A DNA stretch of 50,085 nucleotides, taken from a virus. The DNA is taken from positions 1 through 50,085 of IMG/VR virus record IMGVR_UViG_3300034760_000061. One strand, given 5' to 3'. Both the position numbers and the translations under genes were made by a program. Of this stretch, positions 2,499-38,527 are shown in pieces (the first letter of the stretch is position 1; each line of letters opens with the position of its first letter). The notes beneath the pieces are model-generated. The model ran no database searches. It was not told the DNA's origin and saw nothing but the letters and a program-made list of their open reading frames with translations.

Positions 2499-2891
2499 TT
2501 ATCCCCATGATTGCATCGAGCACCCATCGATATAGGTGGCGGCAAGCTTGTGGTTGTATTGTTCCCGTGCGCTGAACTGCGCCGTGCTCTTCACGCCTGG
2601 CGCTACTGCAAGCAGTTCCACAAGCTGCTGCCCGGTTACAGGAGGGCAGTAAGCTCGGCCCCCGAAGTGTGCAGGGATAAACTCTGCTGTGGCAATTAGT
2701 TCCTCGGCGATTTTGTTTCCCCAACAATATGTGTCAGTTCGCGTTCCGCAATCCCTATAACTCTCAAGGATTTGTCGCTGTCGCTCCGGCATCAAACCGA
2801 TGATAATCAGCCGGGCAGAGAACAACTCATCTTCGAGGCGCCGGATCTTCTCTTGCTCCGGAGTTTTGGTGGATACATACAATTTAGACAT
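2499..2891 (-). CDS. hypothetical protein, possibly frameshifted (130 aa)
   Basis: The ATG at 2889-2891 is chosen for its AGAGGCAA ribosome site. The N-terminus is charged and helical (PEQEKIRRLEDELFSARL). The middle section ESYRDCGTRTDTYCWG...GGRAYCP recalls a small phage protein family in which AYCPLCG begins a zinc-binding segment, but the match seems to stop after AYCP. A second open frame on the same strand (2345-2545) ends 9 bases before the tae4 start and looks protein-like, so a frameshift near 2530 may split one longer gene. It precedes tae4 on the same strand and may share its transcript. Its upstream end meets the truncated integrase at 2931. Function unknown. Confidence 0.5.
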   Translation of the reverse strand: MSKLYVSTKTPEQEKIRRLEDELFSARLIIIGLMPERQRQILESYRDCGTRTDTYCWGNKIAEELIATAEFIPAHFGGRAYCPPVTGQQLVELLAVAPGVKSTAQFSAREQYNHKLAATYIDGCSMQSWG

Positions 2892-2930
2892 TTGCCTCTC
2901 GTAAGCACGCATGCAAAGCACACGACAGAG

Positions 2931-3977
2931 AACCTATCTGTCGCCGCGATGTTCAATGCTTGGCTGCTCAATGGTGTGCGCCGCAAGGACGGCAACGCCG
3001 AACTGCGCCGCTCCTTCAGCGCGGACGTGCTGCCGGCGATAGGCGCGATTGCGATCAAGTATCTGACAGAGCATGACCTCCGCGGCGTGCTGCGGACCAT
3101 GGTCGCGCGCGGCGTAAACCGGGCGGCCGTGATGGTCCGGAACAGCTTGACGCAAATGTTCGCCTGGGCCGAGAAGCGGCAGCCGTGGCGCAAGCTGCTG
3201 ATCGATGGGAACCCGATGGAACTGATCGAAATCGAGAAGATCGTCGCGCCCGACTACGACATGAGCAACGAGCGGGATCGGATTCTTGCGGACGCAGAGA
3301 TCGCGGAGCTCCAGGCGGTGTTCGACAAGCTGCAAGCCGAGTACGATGCTGCGCCAGACAAGCGCTACGGCACGCAACCGGTCGCGGCCACCACGCAGCG
3401 CGCGATCTGGATTATGCTGTCGACGCTGTGCCGCGTCGGTGAGATCAGCATGGCCAGGTGGGAGCACATCGACATGAAAGCGGCGGAGTGGTTCATCCCG
3501 AAGGAGAACGTGAAGGACAACCTGGCCGATCTAACGGTGTACCTCTCCCCTTTCGCGCTCGATCAGTTCCGCCAGCTGCAGTCGGTCACGGGCGGCACGG
3601 CCTGGTGCTTCCCAGCGCGGAATAATGAGGGCCATGTTAATTCGAAGTCGATCAGCAAGCAGGTCGGCGATCGGCAATCAATGTTCAAAAAGGCTAACGA
3701 CGGCGGCCCCCGTGCGCCGATGAAGAACCGGCGCCATGACAACACCCTGTTGCTTGGCGCCTGCAAGACCGGTGCTTGGACGCCACACGACCTGCGCCGC
3801 ACTTGTGCCACCCTGATGCAGCGCCTCGGCGTCTCGCTCGACATCATCGATCGCTGCCAGAACCACGTTCTGCCTGGAAGCAAAGTGCGCCGCCACTATC
3901 TGCACCACGACTATGCCGATGAGAAGCGCGCCGCGTGGGATAAACTCGGCGCACACTTATCTACTGTTCTGAAATGA
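2931..3977 (+). pseudogene. tyrosine integrase, 5'-truncated (copy 2)
   Basis: From about 2931 the translation matches the intact integrase at 10190-11707 almost residue for residue (MFNAWLLNGVRRKDGNAELRR onward), including the catalytic residues: Arg in CRVGE, HDLRRTCAT, and Tyr in RRHYLHHDY. The N-terminal arm-binding domain is absent. The open frame continues upstream to an ATG at 2772, but that part is antisense to the 2499-2891 gene and unrelated to integrase. The C-terminus ends differently from copy 3 (LSTVLK). It is truncated rather than point-mutated, so the catalytic half is intact but probably inactive for site-specific integration. Confidence 0.85.
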
Positions 3978-4655: not shown

Positions 4656-4895
4656 GCATACGCTGTTTATAAAACTCTACGCCTTGGCATGTCATAACAA
4701 TTCATGGTTTTGCAATCTTCAAAAGTAAAGGACCGCGCACGCCTCCCACTGTAGCGTGCGCGCTCAACGGTTTAAGAGGTTCAGGAACGGTCTTCAATTA
4801 TTGTCACAAAACAATATGTCATATTTCTAAAACACTACTCTTGGTTTTCAAGCAGGCAATTGACGCCAGCTTCTCCCGCAAAGGACAAGAAGACC
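4656..4895 (+). promoter_or_regulatory. rhs upstream region with a 9-bp inverted repeat
   Basis: This AT-richer stretch precedes the Rhs gene. At 4734-4742 and 4754-4762 there is a perfect inverted repeat (CGCGCACGC / GCGTGCGCG) with an 11-base loop and no T-run, so it is not a typical terminator. It could be a regulator site or a transcript hairpin. I see no clear -35/-10 pair. No gene is apparent. Confidence 0.35.
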
Positions 4896-7800
4896 ATGAC
4901 CATGCCCAACGCAAGCCCGTTTCCGTCGCTGGTTCAGCTCATACGTTCCGCATTGATATTTCTACCGCTGGTTCACGGCAGTGTCCATGCAGAGAGCGCC
5001 CTGCCAGAAGGAGCACTGGGGTGGTGGTATTACACTGGCATGCTTAATCCGGATCGTTATGCGTCCGACCCGATTACTGCCTGTCAAAAATCGGCGTGGA
5101 ATCACGCGCGACAGCCGCTTGTCGCGATGCGGCCTCACGAATACCGCCGCGACATATTTAAATGCTACTATCGTTGGCCCACCTCAGAAAGCAGCGTTGC
5201 ATGGCTTGGACCAGCGATCCTGAACTGTAAAGCGGGATATACGCCTACTGCACAGGGCGTCTGTCGTAAAGATAGAGATAAGCCGGAACGTGCCGCCCCC
5301 TTGAAATGTGGAGAAGCAGCGGGGAATCCGGTTCAGTTTGCCAGCGGCGCTAAAGTCCAACATGAAACTGATCTTGGCGGGGGCGCCGACGACGCACTGG
5401 TTGTCCGACGCACGTACCGGAGCGCGCGTGATGGCGGAAGCGGACAATCAGCCGGTCTGGGCTGGTCGTTTTCCTTCGAACGGGCCTTTCTCGCGCCACC
5501 TTCACTGCTTGGCGGCATCAGACCGCAAATCATTGGCACGCTCAGCGACGGCAGCTTTTTCGAATTCCGGCGCGAGAAAGACGGCACATACAAGTCCCGC
5601 CGCGATAGAGGAATGACCCTGGAAGTGCAAGGCCCAGATGAAACTGTCTTTCTTCTGACAACGCCGGACGGCACGGTCGAACGTTTTCTTCGGGAGGGTG
5701 ACAACTTCAGACTCAGCAGTGTTCATACCCGCACCGGTATGGCCACGCAGTATTCCTACGACGAGAAAAACCAACTCAGCAAGATTGTCGACACCGGCGG
5801 TCGCAGCCTGGTGATCGCATGGGAGGGTGACGTCATCGCGTCGATCTCCAGCGCCACCGGTAGTGTCCGCTACGAATATGAGCACGCCACCATACCTGGC
5901 TACCCGGCCATCGAGGGAATGGACCGACTGATCGGTGTACACTTCCTCGATCGCTCCGGTGCCGGGATTTCAGCGCGTGCGTACCACTACGAAGACGCCA
6001 GGGATCGCTTCCTGCTCACGGGAATCACCGACGAACACGGCAAGCGCTTCGCCACGTACGCATACAACGACGACGCGCAGGCAGTGCTGACGGAGCACGC
6101 CGGCGGTGCGCAGCGCTATACATTCGCCTATCCCAGCCGGACCAGCCGGATTGTGACCGATCCGCTGGGCAGCAGCCGGAGTATCGGCATCGCGTACGAC
6201 GATAACAACAAGAGCCAGATTACCGCAGAAAGCCAGCCCGCGGGCGCCGGCTGCGCTGCAAGTGCCAAGGCAACCACGTACACCGACAAAGGCGACGTGG
6301 CCAGCCGTACCGACTTCAACGGAAACAAGACCTGCTTCATCAGCGACCCCATCCGTGGGGCCGAGCTGGCACGCACGAACGGACTGACCAAAGATGCAGC
6401 ATGCCCTGCGAGCATCGATAGCGCCATTCCAGCTGGCGCGCGCAAGATCAGCACGCGCTGGCATCCGGACTGGCCTCTGGCCATCGGTGTCGCCACGCCG
6501 GGACGCATCGACACGAAAGTCTATAACGGCCAGCGCGACGCCGCCGGTAAAGTCGTCGAATGCGCTGGCGGCGCAGTGCTGCCCAACGGGAAGCCGGTTG
6601 CCGTCGTATGCCGTGCAACCGTCCAGGCGACCAACGACAGTAACGGCGCACTCGGCTTTGCGGCGGCCCGAACCGGCCCTGCGCAGGAATGGCGCTACAC
6701 CTACAACCGTACGGGCCAGATGCTGACGAGCAGCGGTCGAGTCGATGCCAACGGCAAGGCCGAATCGTCCAGCATGGTCTATTACGCCGACACCAGTGCA
6801 AGCCACTCCCCGGGCGACCTGGCAAGCGTGCGCAACAGCGTTGGCGAGGTGACCAGTTACCTCGAATATAGCGAGGACGGATTACCGACCAAAATTCAGC
6901 GTCACACTGGCCAGATTATTGGGCTTGAATATGGCCCGCGCCAGCGCTTGGTGTCCAGCACCATCCGCGACGCCAGCGGACGCGCTGAAACGACCAGCTA
7001 CGAGTACGACCTCGTCGGACAACTAATCCGCATGACTGCGCCCGACGGATCGGCGCTGGAGTACACGTACGATGACGCGCACCGTATGACCGGCTTGCGC
7101 GACCGTGCCGGCAACAGTATCAGCTTCACGCTTGATGCCATGGGCAATATCGTGCGCCAGGAGGTGAAAGACCCGAGCGGCAAACTGGTGGCGCAGACGA
7201 CACGCGCTTTCGACGCGCTCAGCCGCTTGCAGCGGGAACAGCGCAGTGCCAAGGACCAGGGCGCGCGCTTTGAATACGATCCGGCCGGCAACCAGACATC
7301 GAGTTTCGATCCGATGGGCCGCGTCACAAAGGGAACTTACGACGCCTTCAACCGTCTAATACAGCAGGCACTTCCAGCCGCCGATGCTACGAGCAAGCCG
7401 GCTACGATCAATTATGCCTACACGCCGCAGGATCAGCTTGCATCGGTGCTCGATCCGCGCCGCTTGCAGACGCGCTACGTCGCCAATGGGCTGGGGCAGC
7501 AAACGGCGCTCATTAGCCCCGATACCGGTACAACGAACATGCAGTTCGACGGAGCCGGGAACATGATATCGAGCGTCGACGCGGCCGGGCGCAAGACCGC
7601 CTATCGCTACGACGCGGCGGGCCGCGTCACTGGCATCGGCACCAGCACGTTCGAATACGGGGCGGCCGGTAGCCCCGCAGCGGGACGCGTGACGACAATG
7701 ACTGATGAGTCTGGAAAAACGGTATACGCGTACGACGGCATGGGAAGGCTCTTGAGGAAAGAACAGACGAGCGCTCCGGCATCCAGGCGCTTCGTGACCG

Positions 7801-9425
7801 CCTATACCTATGGCAGCGAAGGGAGTGGCACAGGACACGCCACGTCGATGACCTACCCCAGCGGCAATCGCGTCGACGTCACCTATGACAGCAATGGAAA
7901 ACCGTCCGCTCTCGGCCTGACCCGCCCGAATGCTGTGCGCGTGACGATTTTGAGTCAGATAAGCTACCAGCCGTTTGGCGCTGTACGCTCATGGCTATGG
8001 GGAAACCACAACGCGGGCAGTCCCAACAAATACGAGCGCCAGTTCGACCTCGAAAACCGGCTGATCAGCTATCCACTTGGCCATCCAATGGTCGGCGGAT
8101 CGGTGCGCACACTCAGTTACGATGCCGCCGGACGGATCGTGGCGACTACACATGCGGGGAACGCCACGTCTAACAGGCTGGACCAGCGCTACAGTTACGA
8201 TGGACGGGATCGCTTGATCGGTTTTACCGGCGCGGCCGCCAGCCAGCGCTTCGAGTACGACGTCAACGGCAACCGGACCAAAGTTATTCTCGGAGCCAAT
8301 AGCTACCTCAACACGATTGATCCGAACAGCAACCGGCTGGCCGCCACTGCCGGGCCGGCGCCAGCGAAACGCAATACGTATGACGCCACGGGCAACCTCA
8401 CCAGTGACGGGACGATACGCTACGTCTACGGCAACAACGGGCGCCTGAGCAGCACCACAGGTATCGGTGGCGCGTCTGTTCAATACCGCTATAACGGACT
8501 TGGACAGCGGACTATCAAGTCTGATGCGGCCGGCGCATCGACTTACTTCGTCTACAACGAGGCCGGACAGATTGTGGGCGAGTACAACAGCACCGGGACG
8601 CCGATACAGGAAACGATTTACCTGGAGGGAATGCCGGTCGCCGTGCTTAAACCGCGTGCCAGCGGTGCAGAAGAAAATGCATACTACGTCTATGCGGACC
8701 ACCTGGCGACACCACGGGTCATCACGCGCGCCAGCGACAACAAGATGGTGTGGCGCTGGGATGGCGCAAATCCGTTCGGCGAGGATCCCCCGGATGAAAA
8801 CCCGAGCCGCTTGGGAAATTTTTCCTACAACCTGCGTTTCCCCGGACAATATTATGATCGGGAGACCAATTTACATTACAACTACTTCAGGGACTATGAT
8901 CCGCTACTGGGGCGCTATGTGCAGTCCGATCCGATTGGCCTTAAAGGTGGAATTAATACATTTGGGTATGTTGGGGGAAGTCCAATAACCCGCACAGATC
9001 CGTTAGGTCTAGCATGGAGTTGCACGACAGTGGGGCTGATAACTACTTGCCGCAACTCACCGGAGCCTGGTTCAGTCGATCCAGTAGATCAACCATTACC
9101 CGCCGCTTCAAGCATCAAGCTCCCATCGGCAAATTCGATATATCAGGCTTGGTGCGAGTCATCCCCTTTGTCATGCACTATGAATGTTGTTGCCAATGAC
9201 GCAGTATCTGGGATACTTGCGGCATGCAAGCGTGCCGACAAGGATGACGACAAGGATGACGAAAGTGAAAAAAATAGGTGTAAGAAAGTATGGGAGTCGT
9301 GCTCAGATGGGTGCACAGTAAGATACGTAAATGGAACCCTTCCTGGGAGCGGTCATGATATGGCGAGTCGAATACGAGTATGTATTCGCAACTGCATGCG
9401 CGCAAATGGTTGCAACAAGTACTAA
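4896..9425 (+). CDS. secreted Rhs/YD-repeat polymorphic toxin (1,509 aa)
   Basis: Start ATG 4896 gives a signal peptide (LIRSALIFLPLVHGSVHA, cleavage about residue 32); the frame is open back to a TTG at 4860. A DUF6531-like segment (GNPVQFASGAKVQHETDL) is at about residues 141-200. YD repeats such as YSYDEKNQL, YTYDDAHRM and YRYDAAGRV run to about 1300. The Rhs core (YDPLLGRYVQSDPIGL...TDPLGL) ends near 1372. Rhs proteins form a shell around a C-terminal toxin. Here the 137-residue tip has 11 Cys and ends with CIRNCMRANGC; I do not recognise its activity. The signal peptide argues for Sec export rather than classical T6SS loading; no VgrG, PAAR or Hcp is present nearby. Confidence 0.9.
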   Translation: MTMPNASPFPSLVQLIRSALIFLPLVHGSVHAESALPEGALGWWYYTGMLNPDRYASDPITACQKSAWNHARQPLVAMRPHEYRRDIFKCYYRWPTSESSVAWLGPAILNCKAGYTPTAQGVCRKDRDKPERAAPLKCGEAAGNPVQFASGAKVQHETDLGGGADDALVVRRTYRSARDGGSGQSAGLGWSFSFERAFLAPPSLLGGIRPQIIGTLSDGSFFEFRREKDGTYKSRRDRGMTLEVQGPDETVFLLTTPDGTVERFLREGDNFRLSSVHTRTGMATQYSYDEKNQLSKIVDTGGRSLVIAWEGDVIASISSATGSVRYEYEHATIPGYPAIEGMDRLIGVHFLDRSGAGISARAYHYEDARDRFLLTGITDEHGKRFATYAYNDDAQAVLTEHAGGAQRYTFAYPSRTSRIVTDPLGSSRSIGIAYDDNNKSQITAESQPAGAGCAASAKATTYTDKGDVASRTDFNGNKTCFISDPIRGAELARTNGLTKDAACPASIDSAIPAGARKISTRWHPDWPLAIGVATPGRIDTKVYNGQRDAAGKVVECAGGAVLPNGKPVAVVCRATVQATNDSNGALGFAAARTGPAQEWRYTYNRTGQMLTSSGRVDANGKAESSSMVYYADTSASHSPGDLASVRNSVGEVTSYLEYSEDGLPTKIQRHTGQIIGLEYGPRQRLVSSTIRDASGRAETTSYEYDLVGQLIRMTAPDGSALEYTYDDAHRMTGLRDRAGNSISFTLDAMGNIVRQEVKDPSGKLVAQTTRAFDALSRLQREQRSAKDQGARFEYDPAGNQTSSFDPMGRVTKGTYDAFNRLIQQALPAADATSKPATINYAYTPQDQLASVLDPRRLQTRYVANGLGQQTALISPDTGTTNMQFDGAGNMISSVDAAGRKTAYRYDAAGRVTGIGTSTFEYGAAGSPAAGRVTTMTDESGKTVYAYDGMGRLLRKEQTSAPASRRFVTAYTYGSEGSGTGHATSMTYPSGNRVDVTYDSNGKPSALGLTRPNAVRVTILSQISYQPFGAVRSWLWGNHNAGSPNKYERQFDLENRLISYPLGHPMVGGSVRTLSYDAAGRIVATTHAGNATSNRLDQRYSYDGRDRLIGFTGAAASQRFEYDVNGNRTKVILGANSYLNTIDPNSNRLAATAGPAPAKRNTYDATGNLTSDGTIRYVYGNNGRLSSTTGIGGASVQYRYNGLGQRTIKSDAAGASTYFVYNEAGQIVGEYNSTGTPIQETIYLEGMPVAVLKPRASGAEENAYYVYADHLATPRVITRASDNKMVWRWDGANPFGEDPPDENPSRLGNFSYNLRFPGQYYDRETNLHYNYFRDYDPLLGRYVQSDPIGLKGGINTFGYVGGSPITRTDPLGLAWSCTTVGLITTCRNSPEPGSVDPVDQPLPAASSIKLPSANSIYQAWCESSPLSCTMNVVANDAVSGILAACKRADKDDDKDDESEKNRCKKVWESCSDGCTVRYVNGTLPGSGHDMASRIRVCIRNCMRANGCNKY

Positions 9426-10189: not shown

Positions 10190-11707
10190 ATGCAATCCAC
10201 GGATTTTTTCTTACCAGTTTCTTACCAGACCTCCCCAATGGCAGCCTACAAACTCACAGCGACCAAGATTGAAAAACATAAGCCTTTAAGAGACGATGAA
10301 AGCTTCGCTGATGGGAACGGGCTGTACATTCGTTTCCGCCGGGGCCAAGCCGGCCAGCTGTCTCGGATTTGGATGTACGTCTACAAGACAGGCACAAAAT
10401 CAAATTATCTGACCCTGGGCGAGTACGGCGCCAGCCTACCCGACTTTGATCTCGCCATCTACAGGCTCAACGCTGAGACCCGACTGACCCTCGATACAGC
10501 ACGGCGTATAGCAATTGAAATTAGTGATTGGCGAAAACGCGGCACCGATCCGAAGGAATTCATCGTAGCCGAATCTGCTCGCCAACAAGCAGAATCCCAG
10601 GCCGCGGTGGAATCGGCGGAGCGTGCTGAAGCGGTGGCATCCGTCGACAAGCTCAGCGTAGCAAATATGTTCGATGCTTGGCTGCTCGACGGCGTGCGCC
10701 GCAAGGACGGCAACGCCGAACTCCGCCGGTCCTTTAGCGCGGACGTACTGCCGGCGATAGGCGCCATCGCGATCAAGGATCTGACAGAGCATGACTTGCG
10801 CGGCGTGCTGCGAACAATGGTCGCTCGTGGCGTCAATCGGGCGGCCGTGATGGTCAGGAACAGCCTGACGCAGATGTTCGCCTGGGCCGAAAAGCGGCAG
10901 CCATGGCGCAAGCTGCTGATCGATGGGAACCCGATGGAGCTGATCGAGATCGAGAAGATTGTGGCGCCCGACTACGACATGAGCAACGAGCGCGATCGCA
11001 TCCTTGCGGACGCTGAGATCGCGGAACTCCAGGCGGTATTCGACAAGCTGCAAGCCGAGTACGACGCAGCGCCGGACAAGCGGTACGGTACGCAGCCGGT
11101 GGCGGCCACGACGCAGCGCGCGATCTGGATCATGCTGTCCACGCTGTGCCGCGTCGGTGAGATGAGCATGGCCAGGTGGGAGCACGTCGACATGAAAGCG
11201 GCGGAGTGGTTCATCCCGAAGGAGAACGTGAAAGACAACCTGGCCGATCTGACGGTGTACCTCTCCCCTTTCGCGCTCGATCAGTTCCGCCAGCTGCAGC
11301 AGGTCACGGGACACACGAACTGGTGCTTCCCGGCGCGGAATAATGAGGGCCATGTCGATTCGAAGTCGATCAGCAAGCAAGTCGGTGATCGGCAATCGAT
11401 GTTCAAGAGGGCCAAGGACGGCGGCCCGCGCGCGCCGATGAAGAATCGGCGCCACGACAACACGCTGGTTCTCGGCGCCGGTAAGGCCGGGGCGTGGACG
11501 CCGCACGACCTGCGCCGGACTGGCGCTACCCTGATGCAGCGCTTGGGCGTTTCTCTCGACATCATCGACCGATGCCAGAACCACGTTCTGCCTGGCAGCA
11601 AAGTACGCCGGCACTATCTGCATCACGACTACGCGGACGAGAAGCGCGCCGCGTGGGATAAACTCGGCACACACTTGGTATCGATTCGGGCGCCGCAGGC
11701 GAGCTAG
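10190..11707 (+). CDS. int: P4-type tyrosine integrase (505 aa)
   Basis: It cuts and joins DNA at an attachment site through a phosphotyrosine intermediate. The N-terminal part (about residues 20-110, DDESFADGNGLYIRFRR) is a DUF4102-like arm-binding domain. A SAM-like core-binding domain follows (about 155-255). The catalytic domain shows Arg321 (CRVGE), His439 and Arg442 (HDLRRTGAT), His465 and Tyr476 (RRHYLHHDY), so all catalytic positions are present. I start at 10190 because AAGGTAGA precedes it; ATG 10238 (MAAYKLTATK) is a plausible alternative. It begins 111 bases after the tRNA-Pro fragment. Three broken copies of its 3' end occur elsewhere in the window. Confidence 0.9.
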   Translation: MQSTDFFLPVSYQTSPMAAYKLTATKIEKHKPLRDDESFADGNGLYIRFRRGQAGQLSRIWMYVYKTGTKSNYLTLGEYGASLPDFDLAIYRLNAETRLTLDTARRIAIEISDWRKRGTDPKEFIVAESARQQAESQAAVESAERAEAVASVDKLSVANMFDAWLLDGVRRKDGNAELRRSFSADVLPAIGAIAIKDLTEHDLRGVLRTMVARGVNRAAVMVRNSLTQMFAWAEKRQPWRKLLIDGNPMELIEIEKIVAPDYDMSNERDRILADAEIAELQAVFDKLQAEYDAAPDKRYGTQPVAATTQRAIWIMLSTLCRVGEMSMARWEHVDMKAAEWFIPKENVKDNLADLTVYLSPFALDQFRQLQQVTGHTNWCFPARNNEGHVDSKSISKQVGDRQSMFKRAKDGGPRAPMKNRRHDNTLVLGAGKAGAWTPHDLRRTGATLMQRLGVSLDIIDRCQNHVLPGSKVRRHYLHHDYADEKRAAWDKLGTHLVSIRAPQAS

Positions 11708-29941: not shown

Positions 29942-30486
29942 CAGCTATGCACCTTCAAGCAGTCGAGCCCTCGGATAAGGTGCGGCGATTCCGGCGTCCC
30001 GGCCGGCGCGAAATACTCACGCACTTTGGCCAGGATGTAGCCCTTGAACGCCGGCGGCGTCGCGGTCTCGTCATCGCCGTAGCCACAAATCACCGTCAGA
30101 GTCACCGCCTCCGGGCTTTGCTTCGTGGCCGGCCAGGTGGCGCCCGCCGCGAGCGTCACGAACCCAGGCTCGATTGAGCGGTCGACCACATAGGCGTTTT
30201 CGCTCAGCGTCTGCACGGCACCGTCGACGTCCAGGTATTTCAGGCTGACCACTTCAACCAGCGGCGAGGAAGGCAGCGGAATCACTCCCGTAAAACTTGG
30301 CACCGTCACCTCGTACGTGCGATTGATGATCGAGCGGCCGGTGATGTGCTCAGCCTCGGCGGTCAGTGCGCGCACGCGAATTTCAATTTCCGAGTCTTGG
30401 TCGGTGCCGTTCGCACGTGCACTTGCGCGCGCATCGGCCATGGAAACCGCCAGCGGAGATAGCGGGCTGATTAGACGCGCGGCCAT
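29941..30486 (-). CDS. head-tail connector protein (gp6-like, 181 aa)
   Basis: Helical N-terminus (LSPLAVSMADARASA) and the block AEAEHITGRSIINRTYEV then VEVVSLKYLDVDG match HK97 gp6-like connectors that sit on the portal. It shares single bases with both neighbours (start/stop touching at 30486 and 29941). Confidence 0.82.
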   Translation of the reverse strand: MAARLISPLSPLAVSMADARASARANGTDQDSEIEIRVRALTAEAEHITGRSIINRTYEVTVPSFTGVIPLPSSPLVEVVSLKYLDVDGAVQTLSENAYVVDRSIEPGFVTLAAGATWPATKQSPEAVTLTVICGYGDDETATPPAFKGYILAKVREYFAPAGTPESPHLIRGLDCLKVHS

Positions 30487-31952
30487 CAGGTCACCCGAAC
30501 AAAACGCGCGTTGGCGAAATCGACCTGCGCGACGGCGCCTGGTGAGGTGCGAATATTGATGAAGGCGTAGGCTCCGACGACGCCCGCATTCACGACGACG
30601 CGCAGAGTTTGGAGCACGCCCTTGTAGACTTTCGTGCCAATGGCCAGCGTTTCGGTCGAGCTCGGCATGTAGTTTGCCGCGCCGCTGACGACTACGCCGC
30701 CGGTGGTGGCAAAAACCACACTGATTTCGTTGATGGTGCCGACCGACGCCGACGCCATTACCTCCACCTCCATGATCACCGTCGTACCTGCGGTCGGCGC
30801 CACCATCAGCGGGGAAAAACGGAACGTTTCAGTCGGCGCGCCCGAGCCCGAGATAGCCACACGCTGAACCTTGCCGGGGAAATCATCATTGAAACTGGCC
30901 GACCTATCCACAATCGAGCAATTGCCCGCGATGGCACCGGCAACTGCCGCGGCGGTCCAGTTCTGCGCGACCGTTCCCGTAGCGTTCAGCCCCAGCACTC
31001 CGGGCGTACCAGGCATAAACATACCGTTGCGAATCAGGTTCGTGCTGTCGCCGTTGATGCCGTTGTTGTTGAGCTGCAGGCGACGCGGCAGTTTAGGAAT
31101 TACCGCGTCGAGCTGGCGCGCGATCGCATATCCCATCTGCACGGCGCCAGCGGCGGTCGGGTGCAGCTTGGCGCCGTCGAACCAAGCCGCTACCGGCTCG
31201 CCTTGGCTGGTCGTGTTGATGTCGGTGTAGTCGAGCATGGAACGGTACAGCTCAACCAGGAAAACCCCAGGCGCGCGGGCAGCGTACGCCTGCAACCACG
31301 TGTTGCTCTCCATCATGCTGAGTAACCGCGCCTGGGTCATACCCGAAAACCCGCGCGGCGTCATGGTCCCGATAATCGGCACGATGCCAGCCCCTTGAAG
31401 TTTCGCCAAGATTGATGCGTAATTGGCTACCGTCGTGGCGCTCGGCACGTCCTGCCCAGCATCGTTCGTCCCGGCAAGGAGGAAGCAATATTGCGGGCGA
31501 TGCGCGATAACGTCCGCATCAATGCGGGCGAGGATCTGCGCCGTGGTGTTGCCGGAAACCCCAGCGTTATTGAGTAGCTCGAAACGCTGCTCCATGAAAA
31601 ATTGCGCTTGCGCCCAATAGCCCTTCGCCAGGTGCGCAGCGAACGTCGCCGAGGTCTGCGTGTTCTGGTTGGTGATCGAATCGCCGAGGATCACGATCGT
31701 TGGCGCCGGCCGCTGCAGAGGAAAAGCGCCGCCGTCGCCGTACAGACCCATGGTCCCATCTGGGTTCTTTTGAATGCGTGCCGGATAAAGCGGCGGCTGC
31801 ACCGCTGGGGCGACGTAGACAGTCCCGCCAGTAAGATCAGTGGTTGCATTAATTCCGCCGGCCAACAGCGCGGTTCCTGTCGCGTCGTCCACTGTGATAA
31901 TGGTCTGCGGGCGATGGCCCATGTACGTTGAAAGCAGGCGGATGGTCTTCAT
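30486..31952 (-). CDS. SGNH/GDSL hydrolase in the head operon (488 aa)
   Basis: The four SGNH blocks are in order: GDSIT (Ser92), the Gly block NAGVSGNTT (about 130), GTND (Asn163) and DGAKLHPT (Asp259, His264). The Ser-Asp-His triad of an esterase or acetylxylan-esterase-like enzyme is therefore complete. Residues 1-60 are a beta-rich leader seen in decoration-type proteins, and residues 280-488 form a beta-rich C-terminal module. It lies between the small capsid-associated gene and the connector, with single-base overlaps, so it is likely a virion protein. It may deacetylate host surface polysaccharide or peptidoglycan. Confidence 0.85.
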   Translation of the reverse strand: MKTIRLLSTYMGHRPQTIITVDDATGTALLAGGINATTDLTGGTVYVAPAVQPPLYPARIQKNPDGTMGLYGDGGAFPLQRPAPTIVILGDSITNQNTQTSATFAAHLAKGYWAQAQFFMEQRFELLNNAGVSGNTTAQILARIDADVIAHRPQYCFLLAGTNDAGQDVPSATTVANYASILAKLQGAGIVPIIGTMTPRGFSGMTQARLLSMMESNTWLQAYAARAPGVFLVELYRSMLDYTDINTTSQGEPVAAWFDGAKLHPTAAGAVQMGYAIARQLDAVIPKLPRRLQLNNNGINGDSTNLIRNGMFMPGTPGVLGLNATGTVAQNWTAAAVAGAIAGNCSIVDRSASFNDDFPGKVQRVAISGSGAPTETFRFSPLMVAPTAGTTVIMEVEVMASASVGTINEISVVFATTGGVVVSGAANYMPSSTETLAIGTKVYKGVLQTLRVVVNAGVVGAYAFINIRTSPGAVAQVDFANARFVRVT

Positions 31953-35496: not shown

Positions 35497-37083
35497 CTAT
35501 TGGTCCAAAAGATAGTCGTCAAGGGATCCTCCCTGCTGGGTTTCGGCCTGGGGCATGACGCCCACCGCCATGGCCAGCGCCACCATGCCGTCGATCCGGC
35601 CGCGCGCCGTGCGCTTGTCGAACTTTCTCGCGCCGCTGTCGCCCACCACCTTGGCATTCGCGCAGCACATGTTGAGTACCGGGTGTGAGCCGTGGCGCAG
35701 TTGCGCATTCAGCAAGCGCACTTCCAAGTCGCGCAGCGCCGGCGTCATGCTGGCCGTACCCTGGCCGAACTCGACAAACCGCTCCAGTTCCGCCTCAGAA
35801 AACCCAGCTTTCACCAGCCAGGGCTTCAAAAATTTCATGTTGTAGCGATCAAAGCCCATCGCCTGCACGTCGAACCGGTCGAAGAAGCCGCGCAAATACT
35901 CGGCCAAAAACTCGTATTCGATCGCCTTGCCTGGCGTCGTATTGAGGAATCCCTGCTTCTCCCACAGGTCGTAAGGCACCTTGTCCTTGCGGGACTTCTC
36001 CACCAGCCCATGTTTCGGCAGCCAGAACGACGGATGCACGCCCCCCGACTCGTCTACGCCTACAAGCGCGGTTAAATCGTTGACGCTCGACAGGTCGAGG
36101 CCGGCCCACACCTTCATACCGGCCGCATCGCCCGGCGCCGCGCTGTTCGATTCCCAAGTCGACCGCGCGACGAAGGGCGCTACCGCCTCGACGCGCTGGT
36201 TCAGGATCAGGTTCCGAAATTCCGGCTCGTTGGCCGGCATGTCCATCGCCTGCTTGCACTGCTTGGCCACGTCCGCAAGCGACCGGAAGATGCCGAGCGC
36301 CGGGTTCGCCGCGGCCCAGGCCTTCCGATCGTCAAGCTGGCAATCAGCCGGCGCCGCGTAGACGTGGCACACCACGCGGGGGTCAGGCGCGCTCGTCTGC
36401 GCATCGATCCAAGTCGAGAACAGGTCAGCGTCGGTCGGCGCCTGCGTGCTGATCGCAATCAGCAGCGGGTTGCTGTACGCGCCCTGGGCCGACGTGATGG
36501 CCGACACGAACTTGTCGGTAGGCCCGATGATCTGCCCGACCTCATCGAGGATGGCCAGGATCGGCGACAGGCCGTGCGCCGTCTTGCCTTCTGCGGACAG
36601 CGCCCGGTACAGGACGTTGCGCGCCAGGCCGATCAGACGCTTGCCGCTGGGCTGAACACGAACCAGCTTCGACAGAACCTCGCTCATTTCGATCATCTTG
36701 CGGGCCAGCTCGAACACCACTGCCGCCTGCTCCTTCGACTGGGCGCCGCTGATGATCTGCGAATTGCGCACCGCTTCGGGTCCGACCAGGTGCGCCAGAA
36801 GGATCGCGCCGATCAGCGCCGTCTTGCCGTTTTTCCGCGCAATCGACAGGTAGGCGCTATGCGTGCCGACCGGGTTGTCGTAAATTTCAAGGATGAACTT
36901 ACGCTGGAAGTGCTCAAGCCGAATCGGCTTGCCGATGTGGTCACCCTCGGGCGCCAGGCAATACCGTTCGATGAATGCACAGACCTTTTCGCCACGGGTC
37001 AGCGGCTTCTTGGTGCAGTATTTGTCGTCCGTGTCGATCGCTGGAGGCTTTGCCGCTGCTGCCTTACGTGGCGAGGAGGCCAT
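35497..37083 (-). CDS. terminase large subunit (528 aa)
   Basis: Packaging motor with ATPase and nuclease. The ATPase shows a Walker A-like RKNGKT (about residues 83-88) and Walker B LAILDE (Asp180, Glu181). The nuclease half shows GLDLSSVNDLTAL and the late acidic motif RGRIDGMVALAMA. EHFQRKFILEIYDN precedes Walker A as in the terminase_1 family. The start overlaps the small subunit gene by 20 bases. Confidence 0.94.
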   Translation of the reverse strand: MASSPRKAAAAKPPAIDTDDKYCTKKPLTRGEKVCAFIERYCLAPEGDHIGKPIRLEHFQRKFILEIYDNPVGTHSAYLSIARKNGKTALIGAILLAHLVGPEAVRNSQIISGAQSKEQAAVVFELARKMIEMSEVLSKLVRVQPSGKRLIGLARNVLYRALSAEGKTAHGLSPILAILDEVGQIIGPTDKFVSAITSAQGAYSNPLLIAISTQAPTDADLFSTWIDAQTSAPDPRVVCHVYAAPADCQLDDRKAWAAANPALGIFRSLADVAKQCKQAMDMPANEPEFRNLILNQRVEAVAPFVARSTWESNSAAPGDAAGMKVWAGLDLSSVNDLTALVGVDESGGVHPSFWLPKHGLVEKSRKDKVPYDLWEKQGFLNTTPGKAIEYEFLAEYLRGFFDRFDVQAMGFDRYNMKFLKPWLVKAGFSEAELERFVEFGQGTASMTPALRDLEVRLLNAQLRHGSHPVLNMCCANAKVVGDSGARKFDKRTARGRIDGMVALAMAVGVMPQAETQQGGSLDDYLLDQ

Positions 37084-37540
37084 CGCCTTCCTCTTCCAAT
37101 TCCTCTCGCAGCTTGCGCGACTGCCGCTCGACTTTGCGCTTGCCCATCAGATCGCGGGTATCGCCAGCGACCCGGCCGCCCAGGCGCAGTGTCCGCATCA
37201 GCGCCATCTCGCGCCGGGCCAGCTGCTCCATCACCGTCGTGCGCGGATTCATCACCGGCGTGCCGCGATCGTTCTTGATCACGCGCCCCTCGCAGCGCAA
37301 CGCGTCGTCTTCCTCTGCGATGTCGGCCTGGCACTGCGCCAGCTGCGCGGCCACCACTAAATCCACATCAGTCCACTCGTCTCGCGTACGCGCGCGCACA
37401 ACGCCGGCCCAAAATGGTACCGCCGATGCGGTCAGCGTCACGTAATCGGGCACTGCGAGGTCGGGCTGTGCCGCGTCGACCATGGCCTTGACGGCGCTGG
37501 CGGCAGAATCGGCCCTTGTCCGTTTGGTCTTGGTCGTCAT
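37064..37540 (-). CDS. terminase small subunit (158 aa)
   Basis: It precedes the large subunit, begins basic, and has the P27-like pattern FWAGVVRARTRDEWTDVDL and AAQLAQCQADIAEED, then RTTVMEQLARREMALMRTLRL. It binds DNA at the packaging site and delivers it to the large subunit. GGGGAAAC precedes the ATG at 37540. Confidence 0.82.
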   Translation of the reverse strand: MTTKTKRTRADSAASAVKAMVDAAQPDLAVPDYVTLTASAVPFWAGVVRARTRDEWTDVDLVVAAQLAQCQADIAEEDDALRCEGRVIKNDRGTPVMNPRTTVMEQLARREMALMRTLRLGGRVAGDTRDLMGKRKVERQSRKLREELEEEGDGLLAT

Positions 37541-37615
37541 GTTTCCCCGGCGTTTTGTGGGTTAGCGTTAAATCGAAGGGTGAGCGCGGTCCCGTAAGGG
37601 GCATTCCCCCGAGGT

Positions 37616-37673
37616 TTTAACCCGCCCTCCCCTGCTACAATATTGCATTTAAATCAATTAAAGGAGGATGTAA
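37616..37673 (+). promoter_or_regulatory. probable promoter and ribosome site of the 37674 gene
   Basis: A good -10-like TACAAT (37635-37640) has a weak -35-like GGTTTT about 17 bases upstream. AAAGGAGGATGT lies just before the ATG. This gives the plus-strand gene its own transcription inside a minus-strand late region. Confidence 0.5.
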
Positions 37674-38228
37674 ATGACTAGCTCGCCTGGCCCTGAATCC
37701 AGTACGCGCGCTGCAATGCGTCGTATCGGAAAAGACCCGCTCTTTTGGTATGTGTACGGCATTTTCGGCATTGGACTTACCGCGCTTCTTTTTGCCATTT
37801 ACGCTTACGTAGAGCACTTTGGCTCGGTGTTTGATTCCGATCAGGAAGGATGGGGACAGTTCGGTGACTACCTCGGGGGCACGCTGAACCCATTGCTATC
37901 GTTCCTGTCGCTGGTCCTGTTCGTGATCAGCCTGCTGAGTCAACGCCTTGAACTGAAAGAGGCCCGTGAACAAATGGCAGAGCAGGCAAAGGAAAACGCA
38001 ACCTCGGCCCACTTGAACGCGCTGTCGACCGCACTCGACGCAACAAACGCAATGATTGCTACGCCATTTAGCATGACTGCCGGCCGTGATCGTTTTATGC
38101 ACGAGACTGCGGTACTGCGCCGCGAGGCGATCTTGAAAGAAATTCTGACTACAGTTGATGTCAGCGTCCCGCTCTATACAGAAGAAGTCGAGGAATCAGA
38201 GGCGGGAGCGGAAGGCCAGCCGTCCTGA
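37674..38228 (+). CDS. two-TM coiled-coil protein, putative AbiC-like exclusion protein (184 aa)
   Basis: It has two TM helices (about residues 28-46, IFGIGLTALLFAIYAYV, and 68-85, LLSFLSLVLFVISLL). The linker FGDYLGGTLNPLLSFLS is nearly the pattern I recall for the putative phage abortive infection family (PF16872). A coiled coil follows (about 86-108, ELKEAREQMAEQAKE), then a helical cytoplasmic tail. It runs against the late genes with its own promoter, as prophage morons do, and its 3' end overlaps the HNH gene by 55 bases. A role in excluding other phages is inference. Confidence 0.65.
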   Translation: MTSSPGPESSTRAAMRRIGKDPLFWYVYGIFGIGLTALLFAIYAYVEHFGSVFDSDQEGWGQFGDYLGGTLNPLLSFLSLVLFVISLLSQRLELKEAREQMAEQAKENATSAHLNALSTALDATNAMIATPFSMTAGRDRFMHETAVLRREAILKEILTTVDVSVPLYTEEVEESEAGAEGQPS

Positions 38229-38527
38229 CCAAAGGCGACCCTCTCCCTTTTTGTCTTCCCCTGCTCTGCTTCGGTCTTCACCTCGTGGCACGGTGCGCAG
38301 ATCGCCTGAAGGTTGCTGGGGTCGTCTGTGCGTGCGTCAGACCACCGCAGCGCCGCGCACTTGGCCTTGCTGATGATGTGGTCGACCGCGTAAGCGATGA
38401 CGCCGTAGCGGCCCGCCTTGAGGCAGACTTGGCACAGGCCGCCGTCCCGCTCCATCACTACCTTGCGGACTCGGTCCCATGCTGCGCCGTAGCCGCGCTC
38501 TTGGCGGGATAACTTAGACCAAGCCAT
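38174..38527 (-). CDS. HNH endonuclease (117 aa)
   Basis: The HNH fold is complete: CQVC zinc knuckle (Cys32, Cys35), VDHI (Asp49, His50), NLQAIC (Asn72, Cys77) and CAPCH (Cys80, His81). HNH genes beside terminase genes in HK97-type phages help cut DNA at the cos site. It is just upstream of the small terminase in the late direction, separated by the plus-strand gene. Confidence 0.9.
   Translation of the reverse strand: MAWSKLSRQERGYGAAWDRVRKVVMERDGGLCQVCLKAGRYGVIAYAVDHIISKAKCAALRWSDARTDDPSNLQAICAPCHEVKTEAEQGKTKRERVAFGQDGWPSAPASDSSTSSV

Follow-up and report, generated by a model that had tools for sequence, protein, structure and literature searches.

A putative phage-defence cargo gene encoding a short two-TM protein beside the inferred cos site of a temperate HK97-type phage

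AbiP, known from Lactococcus, and PdpSau, encoded by S. aureus prophages, are membrane-anchored anti-phage proteins that are regarded as structural analogues, and a nucleic-acid-binding domain has been reported for both (PMC10127798). The only TM helix of PdpSau is N-terminal (residues 5-27), and membrane-integrity staining of PdpSau-positive cells revealed dead cells within 10 min of infection (PMC10127798). Many proteins carry the annotation "putative phage abortive infection protein". The papers searched contained no experimentally tested member of the two-TM family described here, and a literature search for PF16872 or putAbiC returned no papers. With respect to location, the closest precedent is the cos-side region of P2-like phages, which has been reported as a defence hotspot (PMC9122126).

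The window, i.e., the whole stretch of viral DNA analysed here, comprises 50,085 nucleotides (IMG/VR record IMGVR_UViG_3300034760_000061). On its plus strand, an ATG open reading frame at 37674-38228 encodes a protein of 184 aa, hereafter P0001; the start at 37616 given in an earlier, sequence-only reading includes the region upstream of the ATG at 37674. Like AbiP and PdpSau, P0001 is predicted to combine a membrane anchor with a cytoplasmic part, and PdpSau is also prophage-borne. It differs in having two predicted TM helices instead of the one of PdpSau, with respect to the nucleic-acid-binding domain reported for the other two, and in matching neither the AbiP nor the AbiC model of PADLOC. 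AbiP and PdpSau are its nearest tested analogues.

The sequence-only reading had assigned P0001 to the AbiC-like family PF16872, with the block FGDYLGGTLNP as the family hallmark. This assignment did not hold. The family is defined by a match above 22 bits to an 80-position C-terminal domain, and PF16872 is absent from the entire window at E<=10, although this search did detect it in three relatives (L007, L099 and L134). An hmmscan of the window protein likewise gave no PF16872, and no PADLOC model matched it; membership in PF16872, AbiC or AbiP was thus rejected for lack of a profile match. The block is not part of PF16872 either, since in relatives this domain sits further downstream (residues 224-301 of 334 or 168-260 of 284). 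What P0001 has in common with the PF16872 proteins is their N-terminal two-TM module with an invariant GQFGD..GG..NP, and it entirely lacks their C-terminal PF16872 domain. The proposed kinship of the block to proteins annotated as putative phage abortive infection proteins was nevertheless borne out. FGDYLGGTLNP belongs to the N-terminal two-helix membrane module of a large family. The "AbiC-like block" is, from sequence comparison, a shared membrane module, whereas the named family is defined by another domain.

Eighty viral loci were retained from a search based on an 18-sequence alignment, and P0001 is related to them via this module. The invariant columns in 76 relatives are G61, Q62, F63, G64, D65, G68, G69 and P73, and the signature WGQFGDYLGGTLNP (residues 60-73; 37851..37892, plus strand) spans the loop and the start of the second TM helix. 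The window protein has both the signature and the TM hairpin of this unnamed superfamily, which is partly covered by phrog_8999, a profile of unknown function. Residues 32-107 match the latter at E=1e-15 and cover positions 14-89 of 270, the remainder of the profile being absent. The N-terminal 100 aa of P0001 retrieve 93 relatives, and the C-terminal 72 aa retrieve the ortholog and, weakly, L178, L152, L108, L179 and L184. PF16872 follows further downstream in 29 of the 76 phage-encoded relatives, and P0001 ends short of it; 16 relatives match the PADLOC model of AbiP and 14 that of AbiC. The 79 complete relatives range from 172 to 371 aa, most having 222-371 aa. The window protein and its 172-aa copy from Massilia rubra are the shortest, and further short forms have 188-202 aa. 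One family member (L020:5953-7251) bears a C-terminal extension that, read from its sequence only, resembles a P-loop kinase-like domain.

The two TM helices proposed earlier are supported by hydropathy peaks at residues 22-47 and 66-92 and by an AF2 model (76 sequences, mean pLDDT 79, pTM 0.54) with helices at residues 22-49, 57-129 and 137-164. TM helix 1 is placed at about residues 25-46 (37746..37811) and TM helix 2 at about residues 67-89 (37872..37940). Residues 90-164 (37941..38165) form a predicted cytoplasmic helical hairpin at the place where relatives have PF16872, and its pLDDT values are mostly 85-90, dipping to 70. Since the N-terminus carries a charge of +2 and the loop one of -5, the protein fits an N-in/C-in topology. 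Structure searches of PDB and BFVD with P0001 gave no match at E<=0.001.

The open reading frame is confirmed as a real gene. When the region was simulated 5000 times with a first-order Markov model, 13 runs gave an ATG frame of at least 172 aa on that strand; the homology to 80 phage-encoded relatives and to the Massilia rubra protein is stronger evidence of a gene than such simulations. The excellent ribosome site noted earlier is indeed present, as a perfect Shine-Dalgarno sequence, AAAGGAGG (37660-37667, plus strand), lies 6 nt 5' of the ATG, and its AAGGAGG is unchanged in the Massilia copy. The claim of an own promoter fared less evenly. A probable extended -10 element, TGCTACAAT (37633-37641, plus strand), is expected about 0.007 times per 133 bp per strand and is intact in the Massilia copy, but a strict -35/-10 sigma-70 scan revealed neither a promoter for the gene nor a -35 match. 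No terminator-like site was detected 3' of the gene by a terminator scan.

At its 3' end, the gene converges with the HNH gene and overlaps it by 55 bases, in agreement with the earlier coordinates. Both genes terminate at a single CTAG in the Massilia copy, where their products have 172 aa and 112 aa and the overlap is 4 bp. The window has CTCG at this position, so that both the cargo protein and the HNH protein are longer; on the cargo strand, the single base replaces TAG by GAG (38190..38192). Because this one change sets both stops, the last 12 cargo residues and the large overlap look incidental, and the overlap may be recent. Judging by gene order, late transcription would run antisense through the cargo gene.

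A Massilia rubra prophage has this gene at the corresponding position (97% aa and 99% nt identity). Nucleotide identity between the two is 99% in the cargo reading frame and 97% in the 133-bp upstream region, compared with 93% for HNH, 89% for TerS and 90% for TerL in the flanks. In a related phage with an empty site (L022; HNH 91%, TerS 89%), the HNH and TerS matches are 157 bp apart, as opposed to 673 bp in the Massilia phage, and L025-L027 likewise lack an insert at this place. This absence, together with the conserved cassette, supports the earlier description of the gene as an opposite-strand moron. As the site is empty in these phages and the cargo identity exceeds that of the flanks, the gene is a mobile cassette inserted between HNH and TerS. 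The window and Massilia copies differ at five codons, three of them synonymously, and two such near-identical copies are too few to measure selection. Of 343 Massilia-family genomes, 24 contain a relative, and the only close one is that of M. rubra. A DNA similarity search against known phages gave no match.

The insertion site is bordered by the HNH endonuclease gene (38174..38527, minus strand; PF01844, E=4e-8; phrog_144) and the gene of the terminase small subunit, TerS (37064..37540, minus strand; phrog_5601, E=7e-43). Upstream of TerS lies a conserved element (37549..37592, minus strand), also conserved in the empty-site phages, with a putative cos terminus and a cut near 37579/37580. Thirteen TerS contigs share their starting base, 12 nt ahead of the place that CGCTAACCC occupies in this element. 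Since packaged DNA should have such a common left end, cos probably lies near 37579, in which case the cargo would sit at the extreme right of the virion genome. The right ends of the contigs starting there are fragments in which no HNH gene was found.

The interval from HNH to the putative cos is a variable cargo spot. Of the 36 related HNH-TerS intervals compared, 11 are longer than 350 bp and contain differing genes, several of them on the opposite strand: the two-TM gene, a zinc-ribbon and one-TM ORF, an ORF of 148 aa, and additional HNH-like genes with a zinc ribbon. The ORF with a zinc ribbon and one TM helix has about 57 aa and lies on the opposite strand in L212, L213, L215 and L219; the 148-aa ORF, of unknown family and likewise on the opposite strand, occurs in L216 and L221. 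The site resembles the P2-like hotspot, which itself holds two-TM relatives, in that its variable cargo adjoins packaging genes and a putative cos and is encoded opposite to the packaging operon. It differs in its HK97-like portal, its HNH and TerS flanks and its smaller single-gene inserts. The literature searched yielded no description of a cos-side cargo hotspot in HK97-type phages, and the HNH-cos interval of Massilia-type phages is a place to seek more cargo genes.

By crude gene calls, opposite-strand flanking in the whole family did not stand out from the background (22/77 vs 123/486), because false ORFs of high-GC DNA swamp such calls. This test was replaced by homology mapping of P2 portal and terminase genes, by which 25 of the 80 relatives have a P2-type portal gene within 1.7 kb on the opposite strand, and thus lie in the hotspot region of P2-like phages (PMC9122126). 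The two-TM gene recurs in cassettes with a partner, which is either an ASCH-domain protein of about 125 aa or a DUF7946-like protein of about 271 aa. In RefSeq, the genes of one E. coli cassette located beside a "phage portal protein" are named "putative phage abortive infection protein" and "ASCH domain-containing protein", and a relative in P2-EC45 bears the label "putative lysogenic conversion protein". In L099 and L134, both HK97-type phages, AbiC-like members with PF16872 lie on the opposite strand, flanked by a Q-like gene on one side and HNH/terminase genes on the other. Plasmids hold further relatives, as does a Vibrio array that also contains DUF3265 cassettes and a toxin-antitoxin pair, and a short bacterial relative (L198) adjoins housekeeping genes with no obvious defence context.

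The ASCH and two-TM cassette is a candidate defence system. It stands beside a P2-type portal gene in L137:2441-3621 as well as in L117, L130, L140-L147, L149, L153, L156, L172 and L174, and 8 of 5426 E. coli genomes (H11-H18) share it at 99% identity. In L004:5136-6654, the DUF7946-like gene of about 271 aa is immediately followed by a two-TM gene of about 240 aa. This arrangement was also observed in P2-like phages (L124, L158-L161, L163, L165-L168, L176) and on Oxalobacteraceae chromosomes (L180-L183).

The window gene is probably cargo with a putative role in phage defence, and its location and kin make exclusion of phages in the lysogen plausible. Tentatively, it is read as a lysogenic-conversion gene of a temperate HK97-type phage, whose product may act as an infection-triggered inner-membrane effector. 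The host would be Massilia or its kin, with the cargo gene between HNH and cos. The N-terminus would lie inside, followed by two TM helices joined by a periplasmic loop that is short and acidic and carries the invariant GQFGD..GG..NP, and after TM helix 2 a long cytoplasmic helix would fold back as a helical hairpin. P0001 would most likely be a minimal form of the two-TM effector of AbiC/AbiP-like proteins. Its own extended -10 promoter would drive expression in the lysogen, where the protein would respond to a superinfecting phage and stop the infection at the inner membrane. As the membrane hairpin is constant and the fused or separate partners are exchangeable, the family suggests a membrane effector under sensor control, the trigger in relatives probably being either a PF16872 domain within the same protein or an ASCH or DUF7946-like partner encoded separately. 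Counting against a defence effector is the absence of both the family-naming domain and a recognisable sensor or partner gene, which leaves the hairpin itself as sensor or a constitutive block of entry. For an effector, the helical hairpin of P0001 would itself have to sense or oligomerise.

Entry exclusion is the main rival to the membrane-effector reading. A constitutive small membrane protein would block DNA injection of related phages, and the cell would survive. A small single-gene two-TM protein with neither sensor domain nor partner, its putative own promoter and ribosome-binding site, and its cargo location would all suit such a role. The AbiC/AbiP-like domains or ASCH/DUF7946-like partners of relatives suggest an intracellular trigger instead, and entry exclusion is considered unlikely. 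Loss of the C-terminal domain from a longer AbiC-like gene, leaving a non-functional remnant, is quite unlikely. The shortness of the protein among the 79 complete relatives, the different lengths of the C-terminus in the window and Massilia copies, and the stop codon that interrupts the related Oxalobacteraceae copy L178 would agree with decay, whereas both copies retain the putative promoter and the Shine-Dalgarno sequence, the cassette spread intact between two phages, other short forms of 188-202 aa exist, and the AF2 model shows a confident, closed helical hairpin.

A membrane protein expressed in the lysogen for another role, e.g., host physiology or lysis modulation, is improbable; certain short bacterial relatives such as L198 would accommodate it, but relatives recur in defence-rich places, including the P2 cos-side hotspot, the Vibrio array and plasmids. 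A chance or non-coding antisense ORF can be dismissed, for although long spurious ORFs are frequent in high-GC DNA opposite a late operon, the significant protein homology to independently placed genes, the Shine-Dalgarno sequence and putative promoter, and the absence of the insertion from the empty-site phage make it extremely improbable.

For the membrane-effector reading, the family comparison, with its constant membrane hairpin and variable sensor domain or partner, provides a testable model in which P0001 is the smallest natural version. A wider proposal, in which the GQFGD..GG..NP hairpin is a general membrane effector that both phages and bacteria combine with interchangeable triggers, and the window gene a stand-alone minimal effector lacking a separate trigger in an HK97-type cos-side hotspot, is doubtful.

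Elsewhere in the window, the first 10 kb or so look bacterial. Two integrase genes (phrog_1; 2772-3977 and 10190-11707) flank a gene for an RHS-repeat protein of 1521 aa (4860-9425), and a GDSL lipase/esterase gene (30486-31952) is located on the late strand within the block of structural genes.
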